From positions 7,996,100 through 8,060,099 of the forward strand of contig CANTUZ010000025.1 of NCBI GenBank assembly GCA_947846985.1: 64,000 nt of DNA, in the 5' to 3' direction. The notes below the pieces were generated by a model. That model searched no databases. It was not told the DNA's origin and saw only the letters and a list, made by a program, of their open reading frames with translations. The DNA comes from Fratercula arctica (taxonomy: Eukaryota > Chordata > Aves > Charadriiformes > Alcidae). Of the stretch, positions 11,606-53,363 are shown one piece after another (position 1 is the stretch's first letter; each line of letters opens with the position of its first letter). Position numbers and translations under genes: made by a program.

Positions 11606-11611
11606 CTACAT

Positions 11612-13206
11612 AATTGTCCCTTGCCTGCTTGTGTAGGGATGGGGTCAGGAAGGCCAAGGTGCGGCTGGAGCACAACTTGGCAACAGATGCAAAGAATAAT
11701 AAGGGCTTCTACAGCTATGCCAGCCAGAAAAGGAAGGTCAAAGAAAGTGTACTCCCACAATGGGAAAGACTGTTGAACTGGCAACAACGAACAAGGAGAA
11801 GGCTGAGGTACTCAACAACATTTTTGCCTCGGTCTTCACTGGCAACCTCTCTCCCCACACCTCCCGAGTCGATGGACCGCAAGGCAGAGACTGGGGGAGC
11901 AAAATCCCTCCCACTGTAAGAGAAGATCAGGTTCATGACCACCTGAGGAACCTGAACATACAGAAGTCTCTGGGACCTGATGAGATGCATCCCAGAGTCC
12001 TGAGGGAATTGGCTGATGTAGTTGCCAAGCCACTCTCCATGATATTTGAAAAGTCATGGCAGCCAGGTGAAGTCCCCGGTGACTGGAAAAAGGGAAACAT
12101 TGCACCCATTTTTAAAAAGGGGTAGAAAGGAGAACCTCGGGAACTACTGACCTGTCAGCCTCACCTCTGTGCCTGGGAAGATCATGGAACAGATCCTCCT
12201 AGAAGCTACGCTAGGGCACATGGAAACTCGAGACAGCCAGCATGGCTTCGCCAAGGGCAAGTCCTGCCTGACCAACCTAGTGGCCTTCTATGATGGAGTG
12301 ACTGCATCAGTGGACAAGGGAAGAGCTACGGATATCGTCTATCTGGACTTCTGCAAGGCCTTTGACATGGTCCCCCCTACAACCTTCTATCTAAGTTGGA
12401 GAGATACGGATTTGATGGGTAGACTGTTCGGTGGATGAGGAATTGGCTGGATGGTTGCATCCAGAGGGTAGTGGTCAATGGCTCAATGTCCAGATTGAGA
12501 TGGGTGAGAAGTGGTGTCTGAGGGGGTCTGTATTCGGACCAGTACTGTTTAATATCTTCATCAATGACATAGTGAGATTGAGTGTACCCTCAGCAAGTTG
12601 CAGACAAGGACCAAGCTGAGTGGTGCGGTTGACATGCCTGAGGGATGGGATGCTATCCAGAGTGACCTGGACAGGCTTGAGAAGTTGGAGCTGTGTGACC
12701 TCATGAGGTTCAACAAGGCCAAGTCCAGGGACCTGTACTTGGGTCGGGGCCACCCCCGGTATCAATACAGGCTAGGGGATGAAGGGATTGAGAGCAGCTC
12801 TGCCGAGAAGGACTTGGGAGTACTGGTGATTGAAAAAGCTGTACATGAGCCAGCAATGTGTGCTTGCAGCCCAGAAGGCCAATTGCATCCTGGGCTGCAT
12901 CAAAAGAAGTGTGGCCAGCAGGACGAGGGAGGCGATTCTGCCCTGCTACTCAGCTCTGGTGAGAACCCACCTGGAGTACTGTGTCCAGCTCTGGAGCCCT
13001 CAGCACAGGAAAGACATGGACCTGTTGGAGCGGGTCCAGAGGAGGACCACAAAAATGATCAGAGAGATGGAAAACCTCTCCTATTCAAAACCCGCCTGGA
13101 TGCATTCCTGTCCAAACTGCGCTAGATGAATCTGATTTGGCAAGGGAGTTGGACTAGATGATCTCCAGAGGTCCCTTCCAACCCCTACTATTCTGTGATT
13201 CTGTGA
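11612..13206 (+). mobile_element. CR1 LINE, reverse transcriptase region to 3' end (left copy)
   Basis: Covers the CR1 linker (DGVRKAKVRLEHNLA), the RT fingers ([35 protein letters not shown]), '[20 protein letters not shown]', '[12 protein letters not shown]', the C-terminal domain and a tail ending ATTCTGTG at 13190-13206. It is broken by several frameshifts and internal losses. The catalytic box is altered: the mirrored copy reads FADK instead of FADD. From about 12000 on it is nearly identical to 49324-50525 in reverse. From 11842 to about 11990 it is clearly more diverged. Confidence 0.92.
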
Positions 13207-13316
13207 TCTAGTTGAAGATGTCCCCTGCTCATTGCAGGGGACATTGGACTAGATGACCTTTAAAGGTTCCTTCCAACCCAAACTATTCTATGATTCTTTG
13301 ATTCTATGATTCTATT
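13207..13316 (+). mobile_element. CR1 3' tail fragment
   Basis: A second CR1 tail follows directly: 'ttgaagatgtcccctgctca', the 'gttccttccaacccaaact' box and ATTCTATG repeats to 13316. It has its own tail and so is a separate 5'-truncated insertion. Mirrored at 49210-49320. Confidence 0.85.
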
Positions 13317-13742
13317 TCCAGACTGTCTTCCTCCTTGAGTCCCTAAGGGCAGGATGACAGATCCATTGTTGCTCATCACAGGAGCATTAACTATCTCTTT
13401 ACCTAAGTAAGATCAACAAGTTCCTTAAGAGCAACAGTTAAATGTCTTCTCAAAACACCTTTTGTCAATGGACATTTTCTAGCTATTACTGGGATCTTAG
13501 CCTTTCATCAAAGGATTATGTTGAGAATGTAGATTAAATCCAGAATATGCAGAAGTCCTAAGATATCTTTCTTCTCTTTCCTCTTAGCCCAGGAATGACA
13601 CAAACACTACAATATTCTCTTTTGTTTAGAGGTGTTTAGCAACAGATTTTATCAGATAGCTCCTTCATTCGTATCAGAAATTTTTATTCCCATAACTGGG
13701 ATTTTCCAGAGAGCGTGCCACACAGAGATATCTTAAATTTTC
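13317..13742. other. Unique DNA between CR1 tail and provirus (left arm)
   Basis: Non-repetitive sequence, mirrored at 48786-49209. Ends with CGGTC (13743-13747), the target duplication of the provirus. No gene seen. Confidence 0.6.
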
Positions 13743-13747
13743 CGGTC

Positions 13748-14094
13748 TGTCGTGGTTTAGCCTCAGATGGCAACAAAGAACCACATGCCACTCGCTCGGG
13801 CCTTCCCAATATGGGACAGAATCAGAAGAAAAAGGCAAAACTCTTGGGTTGAGACAAAGGCAGTTTAAGAGGACAGCAGAGGGAACAAGAAAACAACAAC
13901 AACAACATGGACAGAGGAATATACAAACACGATTATGGAACCGCCGCTCTCCGACCAGACCCAGGACAGCCCACCCGCTCCAAGCGTGACTTCCTGCCCC
14001 CTCCCCCGGCAGCTCAGGGTGGGCATGGCTCACATGGCATGGAATACCTGTGAGTCTGGGGAGAATTAACCCTATCCCCATGGGAACCAGGACC
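13748..14094 (-). repeat. 3' LTR, left ERVL copy
   Basis: 347 bp ending ...CCACGACA on the minus strand. Its start reads GG rather than the TG of the 5' LTR, and the same change is present in the right arm. The CGGTC duplication follows at 13743-13747. Confidence 0.88.
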
Positions 14095-14612
14095 TTATCC
14101 ACCCCTTATTCCATACCATCTTTGCCATGCCCAGATCTTACAGGTTCCAATTAATTCCCACCACTTTCCCCTGTCATATATATATACACACATATATATT
14201 CATGCAGATATAATGCCCTTAGTCTATGGGCCATCCCTCCAAAGTGTCTGGCGAGTTCATTTAATCCATGGCTTTGGGCTTCATCTGTTAGAACAGTCTC
14301 CCAGGGCAGGTGAGATGGTGTGTGGTGCTGGCCTGTTCCATGCTGTATTTTCGGAGCTTGTGACTGGTGTACCCGGTGTGGCTCATGCACACAGTCCATG
14401 GGCTGAAGATGTAGATCTTGAGGAAGTTGCTGGGCGCCAGCTGCTGACATCAGTTCTGATCCCATCGCTGCTGTGCTTTACTTGTTTTTTTTCATCAAAG
14501 TCCATCTCTCCTTAATTTGGGTGATTCTTACTGTAGTACAGCTGATAGCAATTATAGTAATGAGGACATACAGTGACAGTGTTACTTAGCAATCAACAAC
14601 ACACAATTTGAT
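14095..14612 (-). other. Region between integrase and 3' LTR, no env (left copy)
   Basis: About 518 bp with a TA/CA microsatellite near 14167-14200 and short unsupported frames. No envelope-like signal peptide, membrane anchor or cleavage site. The purine stretch just upstream of the LTR (near 14100-14115) may be the polypurine tract, but it is imperfect. Confidence 0.65.
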
Positions 14613-17600
14613 TCATTGGCTGTTCTCACCCAAAATCAGATCCCCATGAGGTATACATCGGACTTCCCCATCCTTCTGCATCACCCACCAAGTGCACCCA
14701 GGTCCTTGGGCAAAAGCAGTCCCACGGATGGGTTGGCCTTTGCCTGAGGCAGGACTAACCCAGACTGTCTTCCCTAACATATTCTGCATGGGCACTACGG
14801 GGACCTTATCCCCTTCTACGGTACGTGGAAGTTTTGATTGGCCAAGGCCAACCTGATTGGTAGATCCCCTGGTGTTAACCAGCCAGGTAGCCTTTGCTAA
14901 ATGTGCATCCCAATGTTTTTAAGGTCCCCCACACCCATTGCTCTCAGTGTAGTTTTAAACAGCCCATTGTATCGTTCTGTCTTCCCAGAGGCTGGTGCGT
15001 GATAGGGGATGTGATATACCCACTCAATGCCATGCTCTTTGGCCCGGGTGTCTATGAGGCTGTTTCGGAAATGAGTCCCATTGTCCGACTCAATTCTCTC
15101 TGGGGTACCATGTCGCCACAGGACTTGCTTATCAAGTCCCAGGATAGTGTTCCGGGCAGTGGCATGGGGCACAGGGTATGTTTCCAGCCATCCAGTGGTT
15201 GCTTCCACCATTGTGAGCACGTAGCGCTTGCCTTGACGGGTTCGTGGCAGTGTGATATAATCAATCTGCCAGGCCTCCCCATATTTCTATTTCAGCCATC
15301 ATCCTCCATACCAAAGAGGCTTCAAACGCTTGGCTTGCTTGATTGCAGCACATGTCTCACATTCATGGATGACCTGTGCAATAGTGTCCATGGTCAAGTC
15401 CACCCCTCGGTCACGAGCCCATCTAGATGTCGCATCTCTTCCTTGATGGCCTGAGCTGTCATGGGCCCACCGAGCTATGAATAGTTCACCCTTACGTCGC
15501 CAGTCCAGATCCACCTGAGCCACTCCAATCCTAGCAGCCCGATCCACCTGCTGGTTGTTCTGATGTTCCTCCGTGGCCCGATTCTTCGGTACGTGGGCAC
15601 CTACGTGGCGTACTTTCACAACCAGATTCTCTATCCAGGCAGCAATATCTTGCCATAGTTCAGCAGCCCAGATGGGTTTGCCTCTGCGCTGCCAGTTGCC
15701 CTGCTTCCACTGCTGTAACCACCCCCACAGAGCATTTGCCACCATCCATGAGTCAGTACAGAGATAAAGTACTGGCCATTTTTCTCGCTCGGCAATGTCC
15801 AAAGCCAGCTGAATGGCTTTCACCTCTGCAAACTGGCTCGATTCACCTTGTCCTTCACTGGCTTCTGCAACTTGTCGTGTAGGACTCCACACAGCAGCCT
15901 TCCACTTCCGATGCTTTCCCACAATCCGGCAGGACCCATCAGTGAACAGGGCATATTGCTCTCATTTTCTGGCAGCTTATTATATGGTGGGGCCTCTTCC
16001 GCACGCGTCACCTCCTCCTCTGGTGACATTCCAAAATCCTTGCCTTCTGGCCAGTCCATGATCACTTCCAGAATTCCTGGGCGACTGGGGTTTCCCATTC
16101 GAGTTCGCTGTGTGATCAGTGCAATCCACTTATTTACTCCATGTAGCATCAGTTGCATGATGTGTGGTGGGAACCCTTTCTTTGAACATCCAGCCCAGCA
16201 CCGGCAGTCGAGGTGCTAAGAGGAGCTGTGCTTCTGTACCAACCACCTCCGAAGCAGCTCGAACCCCTTCATATGCTGCCAATAGCTCTCTTTCTGTTGG
16301 AGTGTAGTGAGCTTTCGATCCTCTGTATCGCCAACTCCAAAACCCTAGGGGTCGACCTCGGGTCTCCCCTGGTGCCTTCTGCCAGAGGCTCCAGGTAGGG
16401 CCATTCTCCCCAGCTGTGGTGTGGAGCACGTTTTTAACATCTTGTCCTGCCTGGACTGGCCCCAGGGCCACTGCATGGACTATTTCCTGTTTGATTTGTT
16501 CAAAAGCTTGTCGTTGCTCAGGACCCCATTTAAAATCGTTCTTCTTCCGGGTTACTTGATACAGAGGGCTTACAATTAGACTGTAATCTGGGATATGCAT
16601 CCTCCAAAGACCCACAATGGCTAAGAAAGCTTGTGTTTCCTTCTTACTAGTTGGTGGAGACATAGCTGCTATTTTGTTGATCACATCCATGGGGATCTGT
16701 TGGCGTCCATCTTGCCATTTTATTCCTAAGAACTGGATCTCCTGCGCAGGTCCCTTGACCTTACTTTGGTTTATGGCAAAACCAGCTTTCAGAAGGATTC
16801 GGACTATTTTATCCCCTTTCTCAAAAACTTCTTCTGCTGTGTTTCCCCATACGATGATGTCATCAATGTATTGCAGATGTTCTGGAGCTTAACCCTGTTC
16901 CAGTGCATCCTGGATCAGTCCATGGGAAATGGTGGGGCTGTGTTTCCACCCCTGGGGCAGTCGATTCCAGGTGTACTGGACGCCCCTCCAAGTGAAAGCA
17001 AACTGTGGCCTGCACTCTGCTGCCAAAGGGATTGAGAAGAATGCATTCGCTATATCAATCGTGGCATACCACTTGGCTGCCTTGGACTCCAGTTCATACT
17101 GGAGTTCTAGCATGTCCGGCACGGCAGTGCTCAGCGGTGGCGTGACTTCATTCAGGCCACGATAGTCTACAGTTAGCCTCCACTCTCCATTAGATTTTCG
17201 CACCGGCCATGTGGGACTGTTAAAGGGTGAGCGAGTCTTGCTGATCACTCCTTGAACCTCTAGTTGACGAATCAGCTTATGGATGGGAATCAGAGAGTCT
17301 TGGTTAGTGCGATATTGCAGCCTATGCACTGTTGTGGTAGGAATTGGCACCTGTTTTTCTTCGACCCTCAACAACCCCACAACAGAAGGGTCCTCCGAGA
17401 GACCAGGCAAGGTAGACAACTGTTTAACTTCCTCCGTCTCCAAGGCAGCTATGCCAAAGGGCCCCCACCGATACCCCTTTGGTCCTTAAAATACCCTCTC
17501 CATGAGGTAATCTATACCAAGGATGCATGGAGCCTCTGGGTCAGTCCACAATGGGATGCTTTTGCCACTCATTCCCAGTTAGGCTCACTTCAGCCTCCAG

Positions 17601-17807
17601 TACAGTCAACTCTGGGGATCCCCCTGTGACCCCAGAAATACAAATGGGTTCTGCCCCTCTATAGCTTGATGGTATCAGAGTGCACTGTGCTCCTGTGTCC
17701 ACTAGAGCCTTATACTCCTGTGGGTCTGATGTGCCAGGCCATCGAATCCACACTGTCCAATAAACCCGGTTGTCCCTTTCCTCCACCTGGCTGGAGGCAG
17801 GGCCCCT
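14613..17807 (-). pseudogene. ERVL pol, left copy (protease-RT-RNase H-integrase), broken
   Basis: Domains appear in the order protease (LVDTGAQCTLIPSS at 17700 region), RT (LTVDYRGLNE; YATIDIANAFF), RNase H and integrase (ESDNGTHF; GKTERYNG). Shared with the right copy are an in-frame TAA just before the YIDD box (near 16889), a frame change at the RT-RNase H join (near 16140) and two stops ahead of the integrase core. Private to this copy are small indels at about 17455-17555 and near 14920-14935, nearly all in homopolymers. The Gln codon after the integrase zinc motif is intact here but is a stop in the right copy. Confidence 0.88.
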
Positions 17808-19800
17808 CTAATCCTGGTCATAGTATCCGGTACTCACTTCTTGCAGAAAGGACTTGGAGGTTCCTTCAAGAGGATCAGAAGCAAGATCAGGCCTTCTGCT
17901 CTGTCTGGGGAACTGCCCGCTGGAAACTGGGGCGGCACTTTTCCTGGAGGGATCCCCTTTTGTGGTTGTCCTTCCTTGCAACTCCTGTACCCGTGTCCGC
18001 AGGATCCAAGTAGGTTGTCCATCCCACTTCCTCATGTCCTCTCCATGGTCTCGCAGGCAGAACCGCACGGTGCCTCGTGGTGTGTACCCTCTGTACTCTC
18101 TCTCTTGAGTGGGGAAATGCCTGCTCCTAATAGCTGAGATGCTGGCCCGTACAGGTGGGGAGTAGGGCATATTCTCTTCAAGTTGCTGGACCTTCCGGGA
18201 CAGTTTCTCCACAGCTGAGACAAGGGGGGAAGAGAGGCTTTCTTCATATCGCCGGAGCCGGCCAGCCACCTCATCCACCGTTGGTCCCTCTTTGCCTTTC
18301 CATTCCATTACTGCCAGTGAGTTGGCATATGGCGATGGTGCGCTCCGTACAAACTTCCGCCACATGGGCCTTGTGCAGTGCACCTCATCGGGGTCTGTGG
18401 GTAAGTCTGCATTGTCCAAGTCATAATAAATCATCTCCCGCATGGCTAATTCTCTCAGGTACTGGATACCTCTTTCCATGGTGGTCCACTTGCTTGGTTG
18501 ACATACAACATCTTCACTGAAGGGGTACCTCTCCCTCACGCCTGGCAGGAGTCGTTGTTTCCAGAGGCTGAGGGCTTGGGTCTTCTTTCCAATTGCCTTG
18601 TCAATGCCGCCTTCCCTAGACAGGGATCCCAACTGCCTGGCTTCCCTACCCTCTAATTCCAGGCTACTGGCCCCATTATCCCAACACCGAAGCAAGCCAG
18701 GTGACAATGTGCTCACCTGCAAGTCGCCTAAAATCTTTTCGCATATCCCGCAGCTCACTCAAGGATAGGGATTGGGTAATTATCTCTGGTTCTGCCTCTT
18801 CCTCCTGTCCTCGTGATGGCCCTGGTTCATCATCATCTCTTACTAAGCGAACTGATTTCTTTGTGTACTTCTTCTTTTGTATGGGGGCAACTGATACTGG
18901 CACGGGTTGGTTCCCTGGTTCAGCGGCAGTGGCTGCCACTGGGGTTGGAGTAGCGGCAGTGGCTGCCACCACGGTTGGAGTAGCTGCAGTGTCTGCCACA
19001 GAGGTTGCAGTATCCACAGTGTCGTTCACAGGGGCTGCAGCAGCCGCAATGTCTGTCGCATGGGTTGCAGCAGCCGCAGTGTCTGTCGGTCTGGTCTCCG
19101 TCTCTTTCCCCTGAGGGTGCTGCATAACACTGAGCAGTGCCTGGTAGATACTGGCCAGGGCCCAGCACAGTGCGGTGAGTTGTGCCTCTCTGGAATAGCC
19201 ACAGCATTTTCCCTTCAGATATTCTGCTACTCTATCAGGGTCCTGTAATTGTTCAGGGGTGAAGTCCCAGACCATTGGAGGCGAGAAGTTCTCTAGGTAC
19301 CTGCCCATGTTCTCCCACATGCCATGCCACCCCTGACTGTCCAGCCTCGGAGCAGATCTCTGGGTGGTAGTCTTAAATAGTCGTTTAACCCTAAACAAGA
19401 CCTGGAACATATTCAGCAGACATAACACTAGGAACATGCTGGTTTGAGCATCCCAAGGATATTCAAAATTCTCAAAAGCTGTCATACCTGACCCGAAGGA
19501 GAAAAGGGAGGCAAAAGAGCTGGGGAAAGTGTCCCCTCCTGTTTCCCCCATAGACTGGGTGTAATTATTAATAAATTCTGAGAGGTGGTGCCCAATGTAC
19601 GGATAGGACAGCAATACCCCATAAACGCCCCAAAGTAACTGTCTAACAAGTGATGTTATCATATCATAAGCCGATATCGCACAGGACGGTAAAATGATAA
19701 TCCTCATCCCTCTCCCAGAAGTAACAAACATCATCACAGGGAGTACATAAGCCATATAGGAATTTACATAACACAGCCATGAGAACAAACCAAGCAACAT
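17808..19800 (-). pseudogene. ERVL gag, left copy, one frameshift
   Basis: Same protein as the 663-codon gag at 42734-44725 with three amino-acid differences and one extra T near 18693. That insertion splits it into an N-terminal frame (18676-19800) and a C-terminal frame (17808-18758). ATG is at 19800-19798 and the terminal amber codon matches the right copy. See the right copy for domains. Confidence 0.9.
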
Positions 19801-19896
19801 GGTGGCCAGCGACTATTTACCTAATACAATAACGCATACAACAAATTCGTTTTTTTCAAGCTCTAGTTGGATTCTGTCGTTATCTCAACCCTTCGA

Positions 19897-19914
19897 GCCC
19901 CACGTTGGGCGCCA
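19897..19914 (-). other. primer binding site, tRNA-Lys(1,2) type (left copy)
   Basis: Minus strand TGGCGCCCAACGTGGGGC, complementary to the tRNA-Lys(1,2) 3' end, 8 nt downstream of the LTR end at 19923. Confidence 0.88.
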
Positions 19915-19922
19915 AAAAGGAC

Positions 19923-20774
19923 TGTCGTGGTTTAGCCTCAGACGGCAACAAAGAACCACATGCCGCTCGCTCGGGTCTTCCCAATACGGAAGGATCAGAA
20001 GAAAAAAGGAACAACAACATGGACAGAGGAATATACAAACACGATTATGGAACCGCCGCTCTCCGACCAGACCCAGGACAGCCCACCCGCTNNNNNNNNN
20101 NNNNNNNNNNNNNNNNNNNNNNNNNNNNNNNNNNNNNNNNNNNNNNNNNNNNNNNNNNNNNNNNNNNNNNNNNNNNNNNNNNNNNNNNNNNNNNNNNNNN
20201 NNNNNNNNNNNNNNNNNNNNNNNNNNNNNNNNNNNNNNNNNNNNNNNNNNNNNNNNNNNNNNNNNNNNNNNNNNNNNNNNNNNNNNNNNNNNNNNNNNNN
20301 NNNNNNNNNNNNNNNNNNNNNNNNNNNNNNNNNNNNNNNNNNNNNNNNNNNNNNNNNNNNNNNNNNNNNNNNNNNNNNNNNNNNNNNNNNNNNNNNNNNN
20401 NNNNNNNNNNNNNNNNNNNNNNNNNNNNNNNNNNNNNNNNNNNNNNNNNNNNNNNNNNNNNNNNNNNNNNNNNNNNNNNNNNNNNNNNNNNNNNNNNNNN
20501 NNNNNNNNNCAAACTCTTGGGTTGAGACAAAGGCAGTTTAAGAGGACAGCAGAGGGAACAAGAAAAACAGCAACAACAACATGGACAGAGGAATATACAA
20601 ACACGATTATGGAAACCGCCGCTCTCTCGACCAGGACCCAGGGACAGCCCACCCGCTCCAAGCGTGACTTCCTGCCCCCTCCCCCGGCAGCTCAGGGTGG
20701 GCCATGGCTCACATGGCATGGAATACCCTGGAGCACTGGGGAGAATTAACACTAACCCCGCTGGAACCAGGGCA
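19923..20774 (-). repeat. 5' LTR, left ERVL copy, interrupted by assembly gap
   Basis: Both LTR ends are present: TGCCCTGG at 20774 and CCACGACA at 19923. The middle is replaced by 418 N. The flanks overlap each other, since the stretch from 'aacaacatggacagagg' to 'gcccacccgct' occurs on both sides. The left flank also lacks about 65 bases present in other copies. The true LTR is probably 347 bp as in the right arm. Confidence 0.85.
20092..20509. other. Assembly gap (418 N)
   Basis: A run of N inside the left 5' LTR. Overlapping flanks imply a negative-size or false gap rather than missing DNA. Confidence 0.97.
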
Positions 20775-21014
20775 CGGTCCTAAAGAGATAAAGCCTTGTG
20801 AGTGGCTTGGCATATTCACCCAGCCTGCTTTAAGATCTCTCCTGTGGGAAAGTTTACTGAACCACGCTTCAGGTAGACAGTACTCACAAGGAGTTTTGGA
20901 AACTCCATCCAGCAGAGCTGGTGCTTACTTGTCAATATTAGTTGAAAGATCTTTGCAAAAATAGTTCAATAGCTGCATTGCCAACAGATTGATTTCAAAA
21001 AGGCAACTAAACAT

Positions 21015-21722
21015 TAATAAAGCCTTTGACACCATTTCCTACAGCATTCTCCTGGATAAACTGGCTGCCCATGGCTTGGATGGGAACACTCTTTGCTGGG
21101 GAAAAAACTGGCTGGAGGGCCGGGCCTAGAGAGTGGTGGTGAATGGAGTTAAATCCAGTTGGCGGCCGGTCACAAGTGGTGTTCCCCAGGGCTTGGTATT
21201 GGGGCCGGTTCTCTTTAATATCTTTATCAATGATCTGAACGAGGGGATGGAGTGCACCCTCAGTAAGTTTGCAGACGACACCAAGTTAGATGGGAGTGTC
21301 GACCTGCTTGAGGGTAGAAAGGCTTTGCAGAGGGATCTGGACAGGCTGGATCGATGGGACGAGGCCAATGGTATGAGGTTCAACAAGGCCAAGTGCCAGG
21401 TCCTGCACTTGGGTCACAACAACCCCGTGCAGCAATACAGGCTTGGGGACAAGTGGCTGGACAAGAGGAAACGGCCTCAAGTTGCACCTGGGGAGGTTCA
21501 AATTGGATATTAGGAAAAATTTCTTCACTGAAAGGGTTATTAAGCATTGGAACAGGCTGCCCAGGGAAGTGGTGGAATCGCCGCCCCGGAGGTATTAAAA
21601 GATGTGTAGACATGGCACTTAGCGACATGATTTAGTCATGGTTTTTGTCAGAGTTAGGTTGATGGTTGGACTCGATGATCTGAAAGGTCCTTCCAACCTA
21701 GGCAATGCTATGATTCTATGAA
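21015..21722 (+). mobile_element. CR1 LINE 3' part with internal deletion (left arm)
   Basis: RT region from the KAFDTIS motif through [19 protein letters not shown] and [14 protein letters not shown] to YRLGDKWLD, then an abrupt jump at about 21463 to the 'cctcaagttgcacctgggg' region and the 3' UTR with ATTCTATG at 21710-21721. The jump removes most of the ORF2 C-terminus. The FADD catalytic box is intact. Mirrored at 41318-42030. Confidence 0.92.
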
Positions 21723-22828
21723 TTTTTATTCTTAAAGCAAAATTCTTTACTACTGTATATGACATACATAAATGTTGGGCTTTCCCAGTCAACACACTAA
21801 TATTAGAAATATTCACAGTAGGCCAGTCAAATATTTTGGCATTTCTTTATATAGATAACTTTGAAATATTTTATGCAAATAATCTTAATTTTCCCAAGTA
21901 GCTACTTTCCTTGTGATGCGTAGAAATATCAAAACACTCTGAATAACTGAATAAAAGTTTCCAAGTTTTAAGAGTTTAAAAACATTCACCTTTCTTTTTG
22001 ATTAAAAGTCCTTTGGTCATCATACTATGCTTTGGCCTCTCTTATACCCTCCTGAAGAGCATTTTAAAGATAGCTGCTAAAATAATATTCTCTTCCTGTC
22101 AATAAATTGCTATAAATAAACTGCTCTCTGAGCTCCACCATTAGCTCATTCTTTCCCATCATATTAACTTTGAATTTTTTCCTAAATGCCTGCAGATCCT
22201 CCACAATCCCTCTCCCCCATCAAAGTTCTATATCCCTTCCACCTTGAACCTACTGCAGCTACCAATGATACCCGTTTCAGCGTATTTTCCTGTCTGTCAT
22301 CTTTTTCATATTTTCTGTCTCTCTTTATACAGAACATTCCTCTTGCCCACAGCCCACAAAGGTAGTCCCCATCCTCTCAACTTTCAAATCATTCCTTAAG
22401 ACCTTTTTCCCCCCCAGCAATATTCACAATAAGCCATAAAAGTCACAAATGGCAAAGGAGAACTCTAACTATGAACAGCTGAAATAGCTGAACAACCAAC
22501 TAACAAATGCAAGTTAACCTTGCATTTGCACCTAACCAATGCCACCAGATTATCATTTCACCCTTTATCATCCCTTCCTTTCCAACCTTTAATAGCTCGT
22601 TTATCACGTCATGCCACTGGTCAGAACATAAATCTCATGGGAAAAATGCTGCAATTTTTACACCTTTCATAAAAATCACATATTGCATTTTGCATAATTT
22701 TAAATATGTAAAAATTAAATATCCTGTTGTTTGTCAGACCTCGTTCCCTTTTCTCATTACCTTTAAGCAATGGTCATCAAAACAGTAATCGTATGGGTAT
22801 ACATATACATATATATTTTAATCTAGCA
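21723..22828. other. Unique AT-rich DNA (left arm)
   Basis: About 1.1 kb, mirrored at 40213-41317. Frames here (such as 22507-22788) have no recognisable content. Confidence 0.5.
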
Positions 22829-40212: not shown

Positions 40213-41317
40213 TAGATTAAAATATATATGTATATGTATACCCATACGATTACTGTTTTGATGACCATTGCTTAAAGGTAATGAGAAAAGGGAACGAGGT
40301 CTGACAAACAACAGGATATTTAATTTTTACATATTTAAAATTATGCAAAATGCAATATGTGATTTTTATGAAAGGTGTAAAAATTGCAGCATTTTTCCCA
40401 TGAGATTTATGTTCTGACCAGTGGCATGACGTGATAAACGAGCTATAAAGGTTGGAAAGGAAGGGATGATAAAGGGTGAAATGATAATCTGGTGGCATTG
40501 GTTAGGTGCAAATGCAAGGTTAACTTGCATTTGTTAGTTGGTTGTTCAGCTATTTCAGCTGTTCATAGTTAGAGTTCTCCTTTGCCATTTGTGACTTTTA
40601 TGGCTTATTGTGAATATTGCTGGGGGGGAAAAAGGTCTTAAGGAATGATTTGAAAGTTGAGAGGATGGGGACTACCTTTGTGGGCTGTGGGCAAGAGGAA
40701 TGTTCTGTATAAAGAGAGACAGAAAATATGAAAAAGATGACAGACAGGAAAATACGCTGAAACGGGTATCATTGGTAGCTGCAGTAGGTTCAAGGTGGAA
40801 GGGATATAGAACTTTGATGGGGGAGAGGGATTGTGGAGGATCTGCAAGGCATTTAGGAAAAAATTCAAAGTTAATATGATGGGAAAGAATGAGCTAATGG
40901 TGGAGCTCAGAGAGCAGTTTATTTATAGCAATTTATTGACAGGAAGAGAATATTATTTTAGCAGCTATCTTTAAAATGCTCTTCAGGAGGGTATAAGAGA
41001 GGCCAAAGCATAGTATGATGACCAAAGGACTTTTAATCAAAAAGAAAGGTGAATGTTTTTAAACTCTTAAAACTTGGAAACTTTTATTCAGTTATTCAGA
41101 GTGTTTTGATATTTCTACGCATCACAAGGAAAGTAGCTACTTGGGAAAATTAAGATTATTTGCATAAAATATTTCAAAGTTATCTATATAAAGAAATGCC
41201 AAAATATTTGACTGGCCTACTGTGAATATTTCTAATATTAGTGTGTTGACTGGGAAAGCCCAACATTTATGTATGTCATATACAGTAGTAAAGAATTTTG
41301 CTTTAAGAATAAAAATT
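40213..41317. other. Unique AT-rich DNA (right arm)
   Basis: Mirror of 21723-22828. No gene seen. Confidence 0.5.
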
Positions 41318-42030
41318 CATAGAATCATAGCATTGCCTAGGTTGGAAGGACCTTTCAGATCATCGAGTCCAACCATCAACCTAACTCTGACAAAAACCAT
41401 GACTAAATCATGTCGCTAAGTGCCATGTCTACACATCTTTTAAATACCTCCGGGGCGGCGATTCCACCACTTCCCTGGGCAGCCTGTTCCAATGCTTAAT
41501 AACCCTTTCAGTGAAGAAATTTTTCCTAATATCCAATTTGAACCTCCCCAGGTGCAACTTGAGGCCGTTTCCTCTTGTCCAGCCACTTGTCCCCAAGCCT
41601 GTATTGCTGCACGGGGTTGTTGTGACCCAAGTGCAGGACCTGGCACTTGGCCTTGTTGAACCTCATACCATTGGCCTCGTCCCATCGATCCAGCCTGTCC
41701 AGATCCCTCTGCAAAGCCTTTCTACCCTCAAGCAGGTCAACACTCCCATCTAACTTGGTGTCGTCTGCAAACTTACTGAGGGTGCACTCCATCCCCTCGT
41801 TCAGATCATTGATAAAGATATTAAAGAGAACCGGCCCCAATACCAAGCCCTGGGGAACACCACTTGTGACCGGCCGCCAACTGGATTTAACTCCATTCAC
41901 CACCACTCTCTAGGCCCGGCCCTCCAGCCAGTTTTTTCCCCAGCAAAGAGTGTTCCCATCCAAGCCATGGGCAGCCAGTTTATCCAGGAGAATGCTGTAG
42001 GAAATGGTGTCAAAGGCTTTATTAATGTTT
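41318..42030 (-). mobile_element. CR1 LINE 3' part with internal deletion (right arm)
   Basis: Mirror of 21015-21722, with FADD box, identical internal deletion join and ATTCTATG tail. Confidence 0.92.
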
Positions 42031-42264
42031 AGTTGCCTTTTTGAAATCAATCTGTTGGCAATGCAGCTATTGAACTATTTTTGCAAAGATCTTTCAACTA
42101 ATATTGACAAGTAAGCACCAGCTCTGCTGGATGGAGTTTCCAAACTCCTTGTGAGTACTGGTCTACCTGAAGCGTGGTTCAGTAAACTTTCCCACAGGAG
42201 AGATCTTAAAGCAGGCTGGGTGAATATGCCAAGCCACTCACAAAGCTTTATCTCTTTAGGACCG

Positions 42265-42611
42265 TGCCCTGGTTCCAGCGGGGTTAGTGTTAATTCTCCC
42301 CAGGCTCACAGGTATTCCATGCCATGTGAGCCATGCCCACCCTGAGCTGCCGGGGGAGGGGGCAGGAAGTCACGCTTGGAGCGGGTGGGCTGTCCTGGGT
42401 CTGGTCGGAGAGCGGCGGTTCCATAATCGTGTTTGTATATTCCTCTGTCCATGTTGTTGTTGCTGTTTTTCTTGTTCCCTCTGCTGTCCTCTTAAACTGC
42501 CTTTGTCTCAACCCAAGAGTTTTGCCTTTTTCTTCTGATCCTTCCCGTATTGGGAAGACCCGAGCGAGCGGCATGTGGTTCTTTGTTGCCGTCTGAGGCT
42601 AAACCACGACA
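42265..42611 (+). repeat. 5' LTR, right ERVL copy
   Basis: 347 bp, TGCCCTGG...CCACGACA. Contains a T-rich TATA-like 'tttgtatattcc' at about 42432 and the Gln/Pro-frame 'tgttgttgttgct' tract. No AATAAA seen. A 5-bp duplication precedes it. Confidence 0.92.
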
Positions 42612-42619
42612 GTCCTTTT

Positions 42620-42637
42620 TGGCGCCCAACGTGGGGC
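42620..42637 (+). other. primer binding site, tRNA-Lys(1,2) type
   Basis: TGGCGCCCAACGTGGGGC matches the complement of the tRNA-Lys(1,2) 3' end. Separated from the LTR by 8 nt (GTCCTTTT), longer than the usual 0-3 nt. Confidence 0.9.
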
Positions 42638-42733
42638 TCGAAGGGTTGAGATAACGACAGAATCCAACTAGAGCTTGAAAAAACGAATTTGTTGTATGCG
42701 TTTATTGTATTAGGTAAATAGTCGCTGGCCACC

Positions 42734-44725
42734 ATGTTGCTTGGTTTGTTCTCATGGCTGTGTTATGTAAATTCCTATATGGCTTATGTACTCCCTGTGA
42801 TGATGTTTGTTACTTCTGGGAGAGGGATGAGGATTATCATTTTACCGTCCTGTGCGATATCGGCTTATGATATGATAACATCACTTGTTAGACAGTTACT
42901 TTGGGGCGTTTATGGGGTATTGCTGTCCTATCCGTACATTGGGCACCACCTCTCAGAATTTATTAATAATTACACCCAGTCTATGGGGGAAACAGGAGGG
43001 GACACTTTCCCCAGCTCTTTTGCCTCCCTTTTCTCCTTCGGGTCAGGTATGACAGCTTTTGAGAATTTTGAATATCCTTGGGATGCTCAAACCAGCATGT
43101 TCCTAGTGTTATGTCTGCTGAATATGTTCCAGGTCTCGTTTAGGGTTAAACGACTATTTAAGACTACCACCCAGAGATCTGCCCCGAGGCTGGACAGTCA
43201 GGGGTGGCATGGCATGTGGGAGAACATGGGCAGGTACCTAGAGAACTTCTCGCCTCCAATGGTCTGGGACTTCACCCCTGAACAATTACAGGACCCTGAT
43301 AGAGTAGCAGAATATCTGAAGGGAAAATGCTGTGGCTATTCCAGAGAGGCACAACTCACCGCACTGTGCTGGGCCCTGGCCAGTATCTACCAGGCACTGC
43401 TCAGTGTTATGCAGCACCCTCAGGGGAAAGAGACGGAGACCAGACCGACAGACACTGCGGCTGCTGCAACCCATGCGACAGACATTGCGGCTGCTGCAGC
43501 CCCTGTGAACGACACTGTGGATACTGCAACCTCTGTGGCAGACACTGCAGCTACTCCAACCGTGGTGGCAGCCACTGCCGCTACTCCAACCCCAGTGGCA
43601 GCCACTGCCGCTGAACCAGGGAACCAACCCGTGCCAGTATCAGTTGCCCCCATACAAAAGAAGAAGTACACAAAGAAATCAGTCCGCTTAGTAAGAGATG
43701 ATGATGAACCAGGGCCATCACGAGGACAGGAGGAAGAGGCAGAACCAGAGATAATTACCCAATCCCTATCCTTGAGTGAGCTGCGGGATATGCGAAAAGA
43801 TTTTAGGCGACTTGCAGGTGAGCACATTGTCACCTGGCTGCTTCGGTGTTGGGATAATGGGGCCAGTAGCCTGGAATTAGAGGGTAGGGAAGCCAGGCAG
43901 TTGGGATCCCTGTCTAGGGAAGGCGGCATTGACAAGGCAATTGGAAAGAAGACCCAAGCCCTCAGCCTCTGGAAACAACGACTCCTGCCAGGCGTGAGGG
44001 AGAGGTACCCCTTCAGTGAAGATGTTGTATGTCAACCAAGCAAGTGGACCACCATGGAAAGAGGTATCCAGTACCTGAGAGAATTAGCCATGCGGGAGAT
44101 GATTTATTATGACTTGGACAATGCAGACTTACCCACAGACCCCGATGAGGTGCACTGCACAAGGCCCATGTGGCGGAAGTTTGTACGGAGCACACCATCG
44201 CCATATGCCAACTCACTGGCAGTAATGGAATGGAAAGGCAAAGAGGGACCAACGGTGGATGAGGTGGCTGGCCGGCTCCGGCGATATGAAGAAAGCCTCT
44301 CTTCCCCCCTTGTCTCAGCTGTGGAGAAACTGTCCCAGAAGGTCCAGCAACTTGAAGAGAATATGCCCTACTCCCCACCTGTACGGGCCAGCATCTCAGC
44401 TATTAGGAGCAGGCATTTCCCCACTCAAGAGAGAGAGTACAGAGGGTACACACCACGAGGCACCGTGCGGTTCTGCCTGCGAGACCATGGAGAGGACATG
44501 AGGAAGTGGGATGGACAACCTACTTGGATCCTGCGGACACGGGTACAGGAGTTGCAAGGAAGGACAACCACAAAAGGGGATCCCTCCAGGAAAAGTGCCG
44601 CCCCAGTTTCCAGCGGGCAGTTCCCCAGACAGAGCAGAAGGCCTGATCTTGCTTCTGATCCTCTTGAAGGAACCTCCAAGTCCTTTCTGCAAGAAGTGAG
44701 TACCGGATACTATGACCAGGATTAG
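42734..44725 (+). CDS. gag: ERVL Gag, intact 663 codons, with hydrophobic N-terminal domain
   Basis: Retroviral structural polyprotein. ATG 42734 sits in a strong context (GCCACCATGT). Residues 1-70 and 118-134 are strongly hydrophobic, with about four membrane-like segments (2-12, 15-27, 33-47, 52-69) and a further one at 121-134; this is unusual for a Gag. Residues 236-293 are a Thr/Ala-rich block of 10-residue repeats. 300-340 is basic then acidic (KKKYTKKSVRLVRDDDE). 341-520 looks like an ERVL capsid domain (SPYANSLAVMEWKGKEGPTV at about 488-507). 521-544 is helical (VEKLSQKVQQLEENM). 581-600 is the Fv1/ERVL-like tail RDHGEDMRKWDGQPT. No CCHC zinc knuckle is seen. The frame ends at TAG 44723-44725 and pol continues in the same frame. 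Confidence 0.9.
   Translation: MLLGLFSWLCYVNSYMAYVLPVMMFVTSGRGMRIIILPSCAISAYDMITSLVRQLLWGVYGVLLSYPYIGHHLSEFINNYTQSMGETGGDTFPSSFASLFSFGSGMTAFENFEYPWDAQTSMFLVLCLLNMFQVSFRVKRLFKTTTQRSAPRLDSQGWHGMWENMGRYLENFSPPMVWDFTPEQLQDPDRVAEYLKGKCCGYSREAQLTALCWALASIYQALLSVMQHPQGKETETRPTDTAAAATHATDIAAAAAPVNDTVDTATSVADTAATPTVVAATAATPTPVAATAAEPGNQPVPVSVAPIQKKKYTKKSVRLVRDDDEPGPSRGQEEEAEPEIITQSLSLSELRDMRKDFRRLAGEHIVTWLLRCWDNGASSLELEGREARQLGSLSREGGIDKAIGKKTQALSLWKQRLLPGVRERYPFSEDVVCQPSKWTTMERGIQYLRELAMREMIYYDLDNADLPTDPDEVHCTRPMWRKFVRSTPSPYANSLAVMEWKGKEGPTVDEVAGRLRRYEESLSSPLVSAVEKLSQKVQQLEENMPYSPPVRASISAIRSRHFPTQEREYRGYTPRGTVRFCLRDHGEDMRKWDGQPTWILRTRVQELQGRTTTKGDPSRKSAAPVSSGQFPRQSRRPDLASDPLEGTSKSFLQEVSTGYYDQD
43447..43620 (+). 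repeat. 30-bp tandem repeat inside gag
   Basis: Nearly six units of 30 bp, for example starting acagacactgcggctgctgc, each coding a variant of a 10-residue Thr-Ala-rich unit. Also present in the left copy at about 18914-19088. Unit length keeps the frame, so copy number can vary without breaking gag. Confidence 0.88.
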
Positions 44726-45640
44726 AGGGGCCCTGCCTCCGACCAGGCGGAGGAAAGGGACAACCGGGTTTATTGGACAGTGTGGATTCGATGGCCTGGC
44801 ACATCACACCCAAAGGAGTATAAGGCTCTAGTGGACACAGGAGCACAGTGCACTCTAATACCATCAAGCTATAGAGGGGCAGAACCCATTTGTATTTCTG
44901 GGGTCACAGGGGGATCCCCAGAGTTGACTGTACTGGAGGCTGAAGTGAGCCTAACTGGGAATGAGTGGCAAAAGCATCCCATTGTGACTGACCCAGAGGC
45001 TCCATGCATCCTTGGTATAGATTACCTCAGGAGAGGGTATTTTAAGGACCCAAAGGGGTATCGGTGGGCCTTTGGCATAGCTGCCTTGGAGACGGAGGAA
45101 GTTAAACAGTTGTCTACCTTGCCTGGTCTCTCGGAGGACCCTTCTGTTGTGGGGTTGTTGAGGGTCGAAGAAAAACAGGTGCCAATTCCTACCACAACAG
45201 TGCATAGGCTGCAATATCGCACTAACCAAGACTCTCTGATTCCCATCCATAAGCTGATTCGTCAACTAGAGGTTCAAGGAGTGATCAGCAAGACTCGCTC
45301 ACCCTTTAACAGTCCCACATGGCCGGTGCGAAAATCTAATGGAGAGTGGAGGCTAACTGTAGACTATCGTGGCCTGAATGAAGTCACGCCACCGCTGAGC
45401 ACTGCCGTGCCGGACATGCTAGAACTCCAGTATGAACTGGAGTCCAAGGCAGCCAAGTGGTATGCCACGATTGATATAGCGAATGCATTCTTCTCAATCC
45501 CTTTGGCAGCAGAGTGCAGGCCACAGTTTGCTTTCACTTGGAGGGGCGTCCAGTACACCTGGAATCGACTGCCCCAGGGGTGGAAACACAGCCCCACCAT
45601 TTGCCATGGACTGATCCAGACTGCACTGGAACAGGGTTAA
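44726..45640 (+). pseudogene. pol: ERVL pol, part 1: protease and RT fingers/palm, ends at premature TAA
   Basis: In frame with gag after a single amber codon, suggesting readthrough expression. The protease active site is LVDTGAQCTLIPSS (about 44828-44869). RT motifs follow: SPFNSPTWPVRKSNGEWRLT, VDYRGLNE, YATIDIANAFFSIPL (first catalytic Asp), FAFTWRGVQYTWNRLPQGWK. The TAA at 45638-45640 lies a few codons ahead of YIDD and is also in the left copy, so it predates the duplication. Confidence 0.9.
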
Positions 45641-46399
45641 GCTCCAGAACATCTGCAATACATTGATGACATCATCGTATGGGGAAACACAGCAGAAGAA
45701 GTTTTTGAGAAAGGGAATGAAATAGTCCGAATCCTTCTGAAAGCTGGTTTTGCCATAAACCAAAGTAAGGTCAAGGGACCTGCGCAGGAGATCCAGTTCT
45801 TAGGAATAAAATGGCAAGATGGACGCCAACAGATCCCAATGGATGTGATCAACAAAATAGCAGCTATGTCTCCACCAACTAGTAAGAAGGAAACACAAGC
45901 TTTCTTAGCCATTGTGGGTCTTTGGAGGATGCATATCCCAGATTACAGTCTAATTGTAAGCCCTCTGTATCAAGTAACCCGGAAGAAGAACGATTTTAAA
46001 TGGGGTCCTGAGCAACGACAAGCTTTTGAACAAATCAAACAGGAAACAGTCCATGCAGTGGCCCTGGGGCCAGTCCGGGCAGGACAAGATGTTAAAAACG
46101 TGCTCCACACCACAGCTGGGGAGAATGGCCCTACCTGGATCCTCTGGCAGAAGGCACCAGGGGAGACCCGAGGTCGACCCCTAGGGTTTTGGAGTCGGGG
46201 ATACAGAGGATCGAAAGCTCACTACACTCCAACAGAAAGAGAGCTATTGGCAGCATATGAAGGGGTTCGAGCTGCTTCGGAGGTGGTTGGTACAGAAGCA
46301 CAGCTCCTCTTAGCACCTCGACTGCCGGTGCTGGGCTGGATGTTCAAAGAAAGGGTTCCCACCACACATCATGCAACTGATGCTACATGGAGTAAATAA
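45641..46399 (+). pseudogene. pol: ERVL pol, part 2: RT catalytic YIDD, thumb and connection
   Basis: Same frame as part 1. It begins with APEHLQYIDDIIVWG, the catalytic box, then FAINQSKVKGPAQEIQFLGI, LWRMHIPDYS and the connection region (HYTPTERELLAAYEGVR). It ends at TAA near 46399 because the frame changes by one at about 46380-46400, a break shared with the left arm. It lacks its own start and would only be made by reading through part 1. Confidence 0.88.
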
Positions 46400-47195
46400 G
46401 TGGATTGCACTGATCACACAGCGAACTCGAATGGGAAACCCCAGTCGCCCAGGAATTCTGGAAGTGATCATGGACTGGCCAGAAGGCAAGGATTTTGGAA
46501 TGTCACCAGAGGAGGAGGTGACGCGTGCGGAAGAGGCCCCACCATATAATAAGCTGCCAGAAAATGAGAAGCAATATGCCCTGTTCACTGATGGGTCCTG
46601 CCGGATTGTGGGAAAGCATCGAAAGTGGAAGGCTGCTGTGTGGAGTCCTACACGACAAGTTGCAGAAGCCAGTGAAGGACAAGGTGAATCGAGCCAGTTT
46701 GCAGAGGTGAAAGCCATCCAGCTGGCTTTGGACATTGCCGAGCGAGAAAAATGGCCAGTACTTTATCTCTGTACTGACTCATGGATGGTGGCAAATGCTC
46801 TGTGGGGGTGGTTACAGCAGTGGAAGCAGGGCAACTGGCAGCGCAGAGGCAAACCCATCTGGGCTGCTGAACTATGGCAAGATATTGCTGCCTGGATAGA
46901 GAATCTGGTTGTGAAAGTACGCCACGTAGGTGCCCACGTACCGAAGAATCGGGCCACTAAGGAACATCAGAACAACCAGCAGGTGGATCGGGCTGCCAGG
47001 ATTGAAGTGGCTCAGGTGGATCTGGACTGGCGACGTAAGGGTGAACTATTCATAGCTCGGTGGGCCCATGACAGCTCAGGCCATCAAGGAAGAGATGCGA
47101 CATCTAGATGGGCTCGTGACCGAGGGGTGGACTTGACCATGGACACTATTGCACAGGTCATCCATGAATGTGAGACATGTGCTGCAATCAAGTAA
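46371..47195 (+). pseudogene. pol: ERVL pol, part 3: RNase H and integrase zinc domain
   Basis: Third reading frame. RNase H motifs: YALFTDGSCR (first Asp), AEVKAIQLAL (Glu), LYLCTDSWMVANAL (Asp) and VRHVGAHVPKN. The integrase zinc-binding motif is ARWAHDSSGHQG ... HECETC, with the expected His and Cys pairs. A C-to-T change makes TAA at 47193-47195 here; the left arm keeps CAA. Confidence 0.9.
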
Positions 47196-47915
47196 GCCAA
47201 GCGTTTGAAGCCTCTTTGGTATGGAGGATGATGGCTGAAATAGAAATATGGGGAGGCCTGGCAGATTGATTATATCACACTGCCACGAACCCGTCAAGGC
47301 AAGCGCTACGTGCTCACAATGGTGGAAGCAACCACTGGATGGCTGGAAACATACCCTGTGCCCCATGCCACTGCCCGGAACACTATCCTGGGACTTGATA
47401 AGCAAGTCCTGTGGCGACATGGTACCCCAGAGAGAATTGAGTCGGACAATGGGACTCATTTCCGAAACAGCCTCATAGACACCCGGGCCAAAGAGCATGG
47501 CATTGAGTGGGTATATCACATCCCCTATCACGCACCAGCCTCTGGGAAGACAGAACGATACAATGGGCTGTTTAAAACTACACTGAGAGCAATGGGTGGT
47601 GGGACCTTAAAACATTGGGATGCACATTTAGCAAAGGCTACCTGGCTGGTTAACACCAGGGGATCTACCAATCAGGCTGGCCTTGGCCAATCAAAACTTC
47701 CACGTACCGTAGAAGGGGATAAGGTCCCCGTAGTGCCCATGCAGAATATGTTAGGGAAGACAGTCTGGGTTAGTCCTGCCTCAGGCAAAGGCAAACCCAT
47801 CCGTGGGACTGCTTTTGCCCAAGGACCTGGGTGCACTTGGTGGGTGATGCAGAAGGATGGGGAAGTCCGATGTGTACCTCATGGGGATCTGATTTTGGGT
47901 GAGAACAGCCAATGA
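47196..47915 (+). pseudogene. pol: ERVL pol, part 4: integrase core and C-terminal domain
   Basis: Two further stops (TGA near 47231, TAG near 47240) precede EAWQIDYITLP, the first catalytic Asp; both are shared with the left arm. Then come the second Asp in IESDNGTHF and the catalytic Glu in SGKTERYNG. The C-terminal region has KTVWVSPASGKGKPIRGTAF and GCTWWVMQKDGEVRC. An open frame of 201 codons (47310-47915) covers most of it. Confidence 0.9.
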
Positions 47916-48433
47916 ATCAAATTGTGTGTTGTTGATTGCTAAGTAACACTGTCACTGTATGTCCTTATTACTATAATTGCTATCAGCTGTACTACAGTAA
48001 GAATCACCCAAATTAAGGAGAGATGGACTTTGATGAAAAAAAACAAGTAAAGCACAGCAGCGATGGGATCAGAACTGATGTCAGCAGCTGGCGCCCAGCA
48101 ACTTCCTCAAGATCTACATCTTCAGCCCATGGACTGTGTGCATGAGCCACACCGGGTACACCAGTCACAAGCTCTGAAAATACAGCATGGAACAGGCCAG
48201 CACCACACACCATCTCACCTGCCCTGGGAGACTGTTCTAACAGATGAAGCCCAAAGCCATGGATTAAATGAACTCGCCAGACACTTTGGAGGGATGGCCC
48301 ATAGACTAAGGGCATTATATCTGCATGAATATATATGTGTGTATATATATATGACAGGGGAAAGTGGTGGGAATTAATTGGAACCTGTAAGATCTGGGCA
48401 TGGCAAAGATGGTATGGAATAAGGGGTGGATAA
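47916..48433 (+). other. Region between integrase and 3' LTR, no env
   Basis: Mirror of 14095-14612. Contains a TA/TG microsatellite near 48330-48352. A 104-codon frame (48063-48377) has no Env or dUTPase features. A purine-rich stretch 'aaggggtggataagg' abuts the LTR and may be the polypurine tract. Confidence 0.65.
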
Positions 48434-48780
48434 GGTCCTGGTTCCCATGGGGATAGGGTTAATTCTCCCCAGACTCACAGGTATTCCATGCCATGTGAGC
48501 CATGCCCACCCTGAGCTGCCGGGGGAGGGGGCAGGAAGTCACGCTTGGAGCGGGTGGGCTGTCCTGGGTCTGGTCGGAGAGCGGCGGTTCCATAATCGTG
48601 TTTGTATATTCCTCTGTCCATGTTGTTGTTGTTGTTTTCTTGTTCCCTCTGCTGTCCTCTTAAACTGCCTTTGTCTCAACCCAAGAGTTTTGCCTTTTTC
48701 TTCTGATTCTGTCCCATATTGGGAAGGCCCGAGCGAGTGGCATGTGGTTCTTTGTTGCCATCTGAGGCTAAACCACGACA
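48434..48780 (+). repeat. 3' LTR, right ERVL copy
   Basis: 347 bp, same length as the 5' LTR, ending CCACGACA followed by GACCG (48781-48785). It begins GG instead of TG. Several point differences from the 5' LTR show that time has passed since insertion. Confidence 0.9.
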
Positions 48781-48785
48781 GACCG

Positions 48786-49209
48786 GAAAATTTAAGATAT
48801 CTCTGTGTGCACGCTCTCTGGAAAATCCCAGTTATGGGAATAAAAATTTCTGATACGAATGAAGGAGCTATCTGATAAAATCTGTTGCTAAACACCTCTA
48901 AACAAAAGAGAATATTGTAGTGTTTGTGTCATTCCTGGGCTAAGAGGAAAGAGAAGAAAGATATCTTAGGACTTCTGCATATTCTGGATTTATCTACATT
49001 CTCAACATAATCCTTTGATGAAAGGCTAAGATCCCAGTAATAGCTAGAAAATGTCCATTGACAAAAGGTGTTTTGAGAAGACATTTAACTGTTGCTCTTA
49101 AGGAACTTGTTGATCTTACTTAGGTAAAGAGATAGTTAATGCTCCTGTGATGAGCAACAATGGATCTGTCATCCTGCCCTTAGGGACTCAAGGAGAAGAC
49201 AGTCTGGAA
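48786..49209. other. Unique DNA (right arm)
   Basis: Mirror of 13317-13742. No gene seen. Confidence 0.6.
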
Positions 49210-50664
49210 ATAGAATCATAGAATCAAAGAATCATAGAATAGTTTGGGTTGGAAGGAACCTTTAAAGGTCATCTAGTCCAATGTCCCCTGCAATGAGCAG
49301 GGACATCTTCAACTAGATCACAGAATCACAGAATAGTAGGGGTTGGAAGGGACCTCTGGAGATCATCTAGTCCAACTCCCTTGCCAAATCAGATTCATCT
49401 AGCGCAGTTTGGACAGGAATGCATCCAGGCGGGTTTTGAATAGGAGAGGTTTTCCATCTCTCTGATCATTTTTGTGGTCCTCCTCTGGACCCGCTCCAAC
49501 AGGTCCATGTCTTTCCTGTGCTGAGGGCTCCAGAGCTGGACACAGTACTCCAGGTGGGTTCTCACCAGAGCTGAGTAGCAGGGCAGAATCGCCTCCCTCG
49601 TCCTGCTGGCCACACTTCTTTTGATGCAGCCCAGGATGCAATTGGCCTTCTGGGCTGCAAGCACACATTGCTGGCTCATGTACAGCTTTTCAATCACCAG
49701 TACTCCCAAGTCCTTCTCGGCAGAGCTGCTCTCAATCCCTTCATCCCCTAGCCTGTATTGATACCGGGGGTGGCCCCGACCCAAGTACAGGTCCCTGGAC
49801 TTGGCCTTGTTGAACCTCATGAGGTTCACACAGCTCCACTTCTCAAGCCTGTCCAGGTCACTCTGGATAGCATCCCATCCCTCAGGCATGTCAACCGCAC
49901 CACTCAGCTTGGTCTTGTCTGCAAACTTGCTGAGGGTACACTCAATCTCACTATGTCATTGATGAAGATATTAAACAGTACTGGTCCGAATACAGACCCC
50001 CTCAGACACCACTTCTCACCCATCTCAATCTGGACATTGAGCCATTGACCACTACCCTCTGGATGCAACCATCCAGCCAATTCCTCATCCACCGAACAGT
50101 CTACCCATCAAATCCGTATCTCTCCAACTTAGATAGAAGGTTGTAGGGGGGACCATGTCAAAGGCCTTGCAGAAGTCCAGATAGACGATATCCGTAGCTC
50201 TTCCCTTGTCCACTGATGCAGTCACTCCATCATAGAAGGCCACTAGGTTGGTCAGGCAGGACTTGCCCTTGGCGAAGCCATGCTGGCTGTCTCGAGTTTC
50301 CATGTGCCCTAGCGTAGCTTCTAGGAGGATCTGTTCCATGATCTTCCCAGGCACAGAGGTGAGGCTGACAGGTCAGTAGTTCCCGAGGTTCTCCTTTCTA
50401 CCCCTTTTTAAAAATGGGTGCAATGTTTCCCTTTTTCCAGTCACCGGGGACTTCACCTGGCTGCCATGACTTTTCAAATATCATGGAGAGTGGCTTGGCA
50501 ACTACATCAGCCAATTCCCTCAGGAGTCTGGGATGCACCTCATCAGGTCCCAGAGACTTCTGTATGTTTAGGTTCCTTAGGTGGTCACGAACCTTACAGT
50601 GGGAGGGACTTTGCTCCCCCTCCTTGCAGTCCATCCACTCGAGAGGTGTGGGGAGAGAGGTTGC
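49210..50664 (-). mobile_element. CR1 LINEs, RT region to 3' end plus extra tail (right copy)
   Basis: Mirror of 11842-13316: the short extra tail is 49210-49320 and the main CR1 49324-50664. Frames are better preserved than on the left: 164 codons open at 49395-49889, and the catalytic region reads [14 protein letters not shown], so FADD has become FADK. From about 50525 to 50664 it differs from the left arm by several substitutions and two short deletions. Confidence 0.92.
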
Positions 50665-50681
50665 AGTTGATGCTACATGGA

Positions 50682-53338: not shown

Positions 53339-53363
53339 CCCCCCCCCCCCCCCCCCCCCCCCC
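53339..53363 (+). repeat. C25 homopolymer in CR1 5' UTR
   Basis: Twenty-five uninterrupted C within a very GC-rich context. Length is likely unstable and may be miscounted. Confidence 0.95.

Follow-up and report, generated by a model that had tools for sequence, protein, structure and literature searches.

A stretch of 64,000 bases from the puffin Fratercula arctica (positions 7996100-8060099 of contig CANTUZ010000025.1, hereafter C25; the whole stretch is called the window) contains two inverted, nearly identical arms of about 19 kb. We put a probability of roughly three in four on the reading that these arms form a real palindrome of the W chromosome, situated in an intron of the W-linked SV2C copy, with arms of intron sequence overgrown by CR1 elements and one endogenous retrovirus, a fold-back origin and possible upkeep by gene conversion. 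The palindrome was mapped by BLAST comparison of the window with its own reverse complement, which returned an inner block (20511-31044 against 42522-31997; 10,544 columns, 99.69% identity) and an outer block (11842-20006 against 50664-42527; 8,171 columns, 98.97% identity). The two opposite arms of very high identity that the original prediction had described are thus borne out. Coordinates below are those of the window unless C25 is named.

11842..31044, plus strand: palindrome arm 1 (BLAST self-comparison)
31045..31996, no strand: spacer of 952 bp, made of a CR1 piece that begins at the arm edge and, after it, some 146 bp of sequence of another kind
31997..50663, minus strand: palindrome arm 2, the reverse complement of arm 1 (BLAST self-comparison)
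20092..20509, no strand: assembly gap of 418 N within the long terminal repeat (LTR) of arm 1, the only N run in the window
8782..9361, plus strand: first coding exon of SV2C, apparently the W-type copy; the open reading frame (ORF) continues to 9366 and a GTGAGT donor starts at 9362
9362..64000 in the window, continuing to about 64152, plus strand: SV2C intron holding the palindrome (exon matches on both sides)

A palindrome of nested repeats in an intron of SV2C

The long, inverted, high-identity arms surround a spacer, as in avian W palindromes. CR1 pieces, an inverted pair of 453-bp CR1-like pieces and a single provirus are present in each arm, and 60% of arm 2 has matching sequence at other places in the 264-kb neighbourhood. 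Judging from Pfam searches of 20 window ORFs and a search for SV2C, the arms appear to consist of nested repeats that lack a working host gene, again as in W palindromes; no credible SV2C match or exon was found in them, other host genes having been sought only by Pfam on those 20 ORFs. Rfam and tRNA scans gave no hits. The arms had been predicted to share every element and to have wholly different outer flanks. The close match does reach to about 50525/11998, but the last 139 columns diverge and arm 1 is interrupted by the 418 N. The palindrome is not continued into the outer flanks, although self-comparison showed that the repeat families of the arms have further copies there. Because the N run sits inside arm 1, this arm spans two contigs, whose ends on the two sides of the gap share overlapping sequence.

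The protein encoded by the exon at 8782..9361 has SV2A chains as its best PDB match (E 9.4e-63) and matches bird SV2C proteins at up to 93%. The next SV2C exon match lies at C25:8060251, which corresponds to window position 64152, and has an AG acceptor; within the 100 kb to the right of the window, SV2C matches succeed one another in the expected order on the plus strand between C25:8060251 and 8147773. Since SV2C exons stand on both sides of it, the palindrome is enclosed by a single intron, about 54.8 kb long, in agreement with the predicted location. One SV2C-W exon, at C25:8135503-8135704, has an apparent frame change, for which decay and consensus error are indistinguishable here.

The palindrome very probably lies on the W rather than the Z chromosome, as judged from sequence comparisons. 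Residue 74 of the protein (window 9001-9003) is E in the window. Among the best 120 of 1,309 matches it is E in the seven proteins named 'SV2C-like' and in a single protein from Nipponia, whereas the remaining 112 have G. This change from glycine to glutamate is a possible mark of the W copy, although outside the bird set the residue does not discriminate (G in 67, A in 19, D in 17 and E in 17 of the 120 short matches listed). In a tree of 31 rows, made of the window and 30 matches chosen by hand, the window grouped with a Pluvialis 'SV2C-like' protein from a 32-Mb contig with support of 98/86, most other branches being weak, and its branch was longer than those of the Z-type rows. In the king vulture (Sarcoramphus) the two forms occur together, with SV2C on a contig of 96 Mb and SV2C-like on one of 49.7 Mb. 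C25 itself comprises 28,376,909 bases, or 2.3% of the 1.21-Gb genome. When the LTR-gag piece of the window was searched against the genome and 40 of 1,242 candidates were scored, 36 of the 40 lay on C25, three of them being the two arms and the query itself. The Z linkage of SV2C in chicken would favour a palindrome on the Z, but the W-type residue 74, the long branch and placement in the tree, and the dense packing of the 28.4-Mb contig with the same retroviral family led us to reject a Z location as most improbable. The predicted Z or W location therefore held as regards a sex chromosome, and the evidence points to the W.

Provirus and differences between the arms

Both arms carry the provirus, and a fragment of a relative adjoins arm 2.

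13748..20774, minus strand: provirus of arm 1, broken by the N gap (flanked by the duplication at each end; its ORFs match RVT_1 and RNase H)
42265..48780, plus strand: provirus of arm 2 (LTR pair, gag ORF, pol domains)
50682..51317, plus strand: LTR-gag fragment of a related provirus adjoining arm 2, 93.9% identical to 42418-43058

The same 5-base flanking duplication surrounds the provirus in each arm, so both copies trace to one integration, and the prediction of a whole provirus common to both arms was upheld. Either the integration preceded the duplication or the provirus was copied across later. The LTRs of the arm 2 provirus are 95.7% alike, differing at 13/349 columns. Its gag ORF of 663 codons had no Pfam match, whereas its pol pieces matched models of protease, reverse transcriptase, RNase H and integrase (the protease and integrase zinc-binding matches being below the curated cut-off). 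No env domain was found among the six provirus ORFs scanned. The nearest solved structure to the reverse transcriptase piece was 7o0h, 'Pr125Pol', with murine leukaemia virus enzymes lower in the list. Among the best 120 of 222 database proteins, the relatives of gag came mostly from birds where a source was named; the top-scoring match had 67% identity, and the highest identity (94% over 51% of the query) was to the razorbill (Alca torda), an auk. A recount of gag between the arms agreed with the predicted three amino-acid differences and one indel (a single base long), and added two silent differences.

Across the arms, 81 substitution columns were scored, of which 35, in six stretches read as alignment frame shifts beside indels, were dropped by hand, leaving 46; the dropped stretches conceal a few more short indels that are outside the counts below. 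The remaining substitutions form a strong patchwork, with region limits that were set after the differences had been viewed: the inner arm has 2 in 10,263 bp, the LTR with the leader 0 in 877 bp, the provirus interior 34 in 5,300 bp (25 transitions and 9 transversions), the 3' LTR 0 in 347 bp, the sequence beyond it 0 in 1,742 bp, and the outermost 138 bp 10. A patchwork of identity would suit gene conversion, but at least some of the differences in the provirus derive from sister copies or from mixed reads, and those at the end read as a hybrid CR1 (see below).

At the 34 provirus sites, proviral copies elsewhere in the 264-kb region carried both alleles at 17, whereas the arm 2 allele was private at 12 and the arm 1 allele at 5. 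Fresh mutations would be expected to give a both-allele share of about 7% (with an assumed transition share of 0.73). A good part of these differences therefore probably came from sister copies, by gene conversion or through mixed reads in polishing, and true mutations, or copies elsewhere, also contribute the private alleles. Because both alleles occur in neighbouring copies at half of the sites, we rejected the use of the 34 substitutions as a clock.

The arms also differ in length at 43 places, 37 of them by a single base, and 34 of these 37 lie in runs of at least two equal bases. Evolution yields more substitutions than indels, but the inner arm has 18 single-base and one two-base length difference against its two substitutions; if one change in eight is assumed to be an indel, this excess has P of about 1e-15. 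We therefore read most one-base length differences as probable consensus errors, which are expected where reads lack unique placement.

Origin and upkeep of the palindrome

Several features of the arm ends bear on how the palindrome arose. The name CR1 used here is one that we take from the octamer tail and the ORF letters, not from a search with a CR1 model; an RVT_1 (reverse transcriptase) hit within the right flank is consistent with this name.

50525..50663, minus strand: outer end of arm 2, CR1 sequence that reads as a hybrid CR1 junction (third-copy comparison)
36391..36843, plus strand: CR1-like piece of 453 bp whose 98% copy stands in inverted orientation at 41576-42028, so that each arm contains a small nested inverted repeat
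41576..42028, minus strand: inverted partner of 36391-36843 (self-comparison)

In their last 139 columns the arms differ at 10 sites, with additional gaps of 10 and 7 bases. Here arm 1 and arm 2 differ at 10/139 columns, arm 1 and a third CR1 copy at 7/156, and arm 2 and the third copy at 9/139; just inside this end the arms are 0/162 apart and each is 12 away from the third copy. Because the third copy is about equally distant from both arms, a hybrid CR1 junction would explain these columns, with arm 2 seeming to switch in register to a different CR1 copy. On the same ground we rejected the columns as proof of an old palindrome or as a remnant that had escaped conversion. At the left edge, by comparison, the CR1 runs unbroken leftward across 11842, and 11622-12000 is matched at 89% by a single further copy; arm 1 therefore seems to be the original side. 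GATC, which is self-complementary, stands at both edges of the spacer.

From this layout we infer a fold-back origin. Near the spacer, a broken or stalled end would have turned back onto the strand it belonged to and copied arm 1 outward to give arm 2; the copied end would then have rejoined through CR1 homology, leaving the hybrid element at the outer end of arm 2. The spacer separating the arms is as a fold-back event would leave it. Less certainly, the arms may later have been kept alike by gene conversion between them, and the provirus interior may also have taken up sequence from sister proviruses. No organismal function is needed to account for the palindrome.

A second palindrome lies about 34-63 kb to the left of the window, where C25:7933441-7944751 mirrors 7950482-7961796. 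Its 11.3-kb arms have no substitutions and eight single-base length differences, and surround a spacer of 5.73 kb; the sequence has no gap. A repeat also found elsewhere in the region, which we again take to be CR1-like, directly adjoins this palindrome at two places, the outer edge on the left and the right-hand end of the spacer.

The W chromosome is single-copy in a female, and false duplication of two alleles therefore does not apply. An assembly artefact of another kind would be a chimeric or unsplit fold-back read that gave the right contig a mirrored start, onto which the left contig was scaffolded. The 418-N gap inside arm 1 would suit this, as would the inner arms, which at 10.5 kb have a plausible read length and differ far more in single-base lengths than by substitution; palindromic chimeric reads after genome amplification are a published problem (excerpts of PMC6218980). 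We nevertheless consider an artefact unlikely. A fold-back read should have a mirror point without a spacer, but 952 bp separate the arms here; the integration site recurs on the left contig, there with a different flank, and the contig ends overlap in sequence. The 34 provirus and 10 end substitutions, with transitions exceeding transversions, further suggest two templates, or else mixed reads, and the second palindrome nearby has no gap to be explained.

It is harder to choose between gene conversion and a real W palindrome that is simply young, a variant that is compatible with our main claim and that we rate only a little short of even odds. Its recent origin would agree with the finding of 2 substitutions in about 13.2 kb and with the absence of inter-arm substitutions in either LTR (shifted columns dropped), as against the differences between the two LTRs of one provirus. 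On the other hand, two palindromes within about 113 kb are both mostly free of substitutions, and it is easier to envisage homogenisation than two recent births, although this is an argument from plausibility. Of the two options in the original prediction, a very recent origin or upkeep by gene conversion, we lean slightly towards the second, although a young duplication would fit equally well.

Some observations weigh against the reading of a fold-back palindrome maintained by conversion. The few substitutions speak for a young duplication just as well as for conversion. GATC at the spacer edges may be there by chance, and the CR1 of the spacer begins right at the arm edge (31045), which simple fold-back leaves unexplained. 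The left flank and outer arm 1 are linked to the rest only by scaffolding, owing to the gap in arm 1, and the basis throughout is the assembly sequence of one individual.

The right flank also contains copies of elements found in the arms. The stretch 51312-52712 contains copies of the arm pieces 36282-36493 and 36490-36775 and of parts of 39221-40044. These copies are diverged and partly colinear, and look as though the nested inverted repeat had been copied there in an earlier version. Farther right, 53629-57770 and 58436-61131 are two long CR1-like stretches in opposite orientation, by self-comparison and ORF letters, the name again being the one we presume.

Relation to known palindromes and significance

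Human Y palindromes carry testis genes and show conversion activity, unlike these arms, in which no SV2C exon was found. They share with the puffin palindrome a sex-limited chromosome and near-identical arms (excerpts of PMC3723533). Another close system is the duck W, where excerpts of PMC7787181 describe 38 palindromes of nested repeats, of 15.2-345.5 kb, which contain no robustly expressed genes and make up 22% of the W as assembled. The puffin palindrome resembles these in its avian W setting, its nested-repeat arms and the apparent lack of a working host gene inside, but comes from another bird order, lies inside the intron of a W gene and has its junctions described base by base. In the white-throated sparrow, a W palindrome that includes a portion of a CHD1W intron is reported to show signs of conversion (Davis 2010, as cited in excerpts of PMC3403216); this likewise involves the intron of a W gene, but in our case the gene is SV2C and conversion is only a possibility. 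Human fold-back inverted duplications, according to excerpts of PMC3907307, have spacers of 766-70,466 bp, a range that includes 952 bp, and repeat hybrids at 3/21 junctions. They thus share the short normal-copy spacer and the repeat hybrid junction, although those cases are mostly large, terminal and from patients, whereas this one is 19 kb and interstitial. A limited literature search found no report of a bird W copy of SV2C or of W palindromes in Charadriiformes, and met the term SV2C in a quail paper only. The puffin palindrome is a further case of the known bird W class of nested-repeat palindromes.

The case shows a mobile-element palindrome of the W that interrupts no exon but occupies the intron of a W gene; its junctions are described to the base, and a second palindrome is nearby. 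It also carries a warning: one-base differences between near-identical arms in such assemblies are mostly probable consensus errors, and a broken frame in one arm should not be taken for biology. If SV2C-W is transcribed, RNA of the intron, with two complementary 19-kb stretches that each hold the same provirus in opposite sense, could fold into one very long double-stranded RNA and become a source of silencing RNA against the retroviral family, and the palindrome might be kept for that purpose. We regard this as highly improbable; if true, the intronic double-stranded RNA would act as a built-in silencing source on a W crowded with this family. More broadly, the palindrome provides a testable case for the origin of palindromes without host genes on the W, by fold-back and CR1 homology, and for whether W palindromes homogenise when there is no gene to protect.

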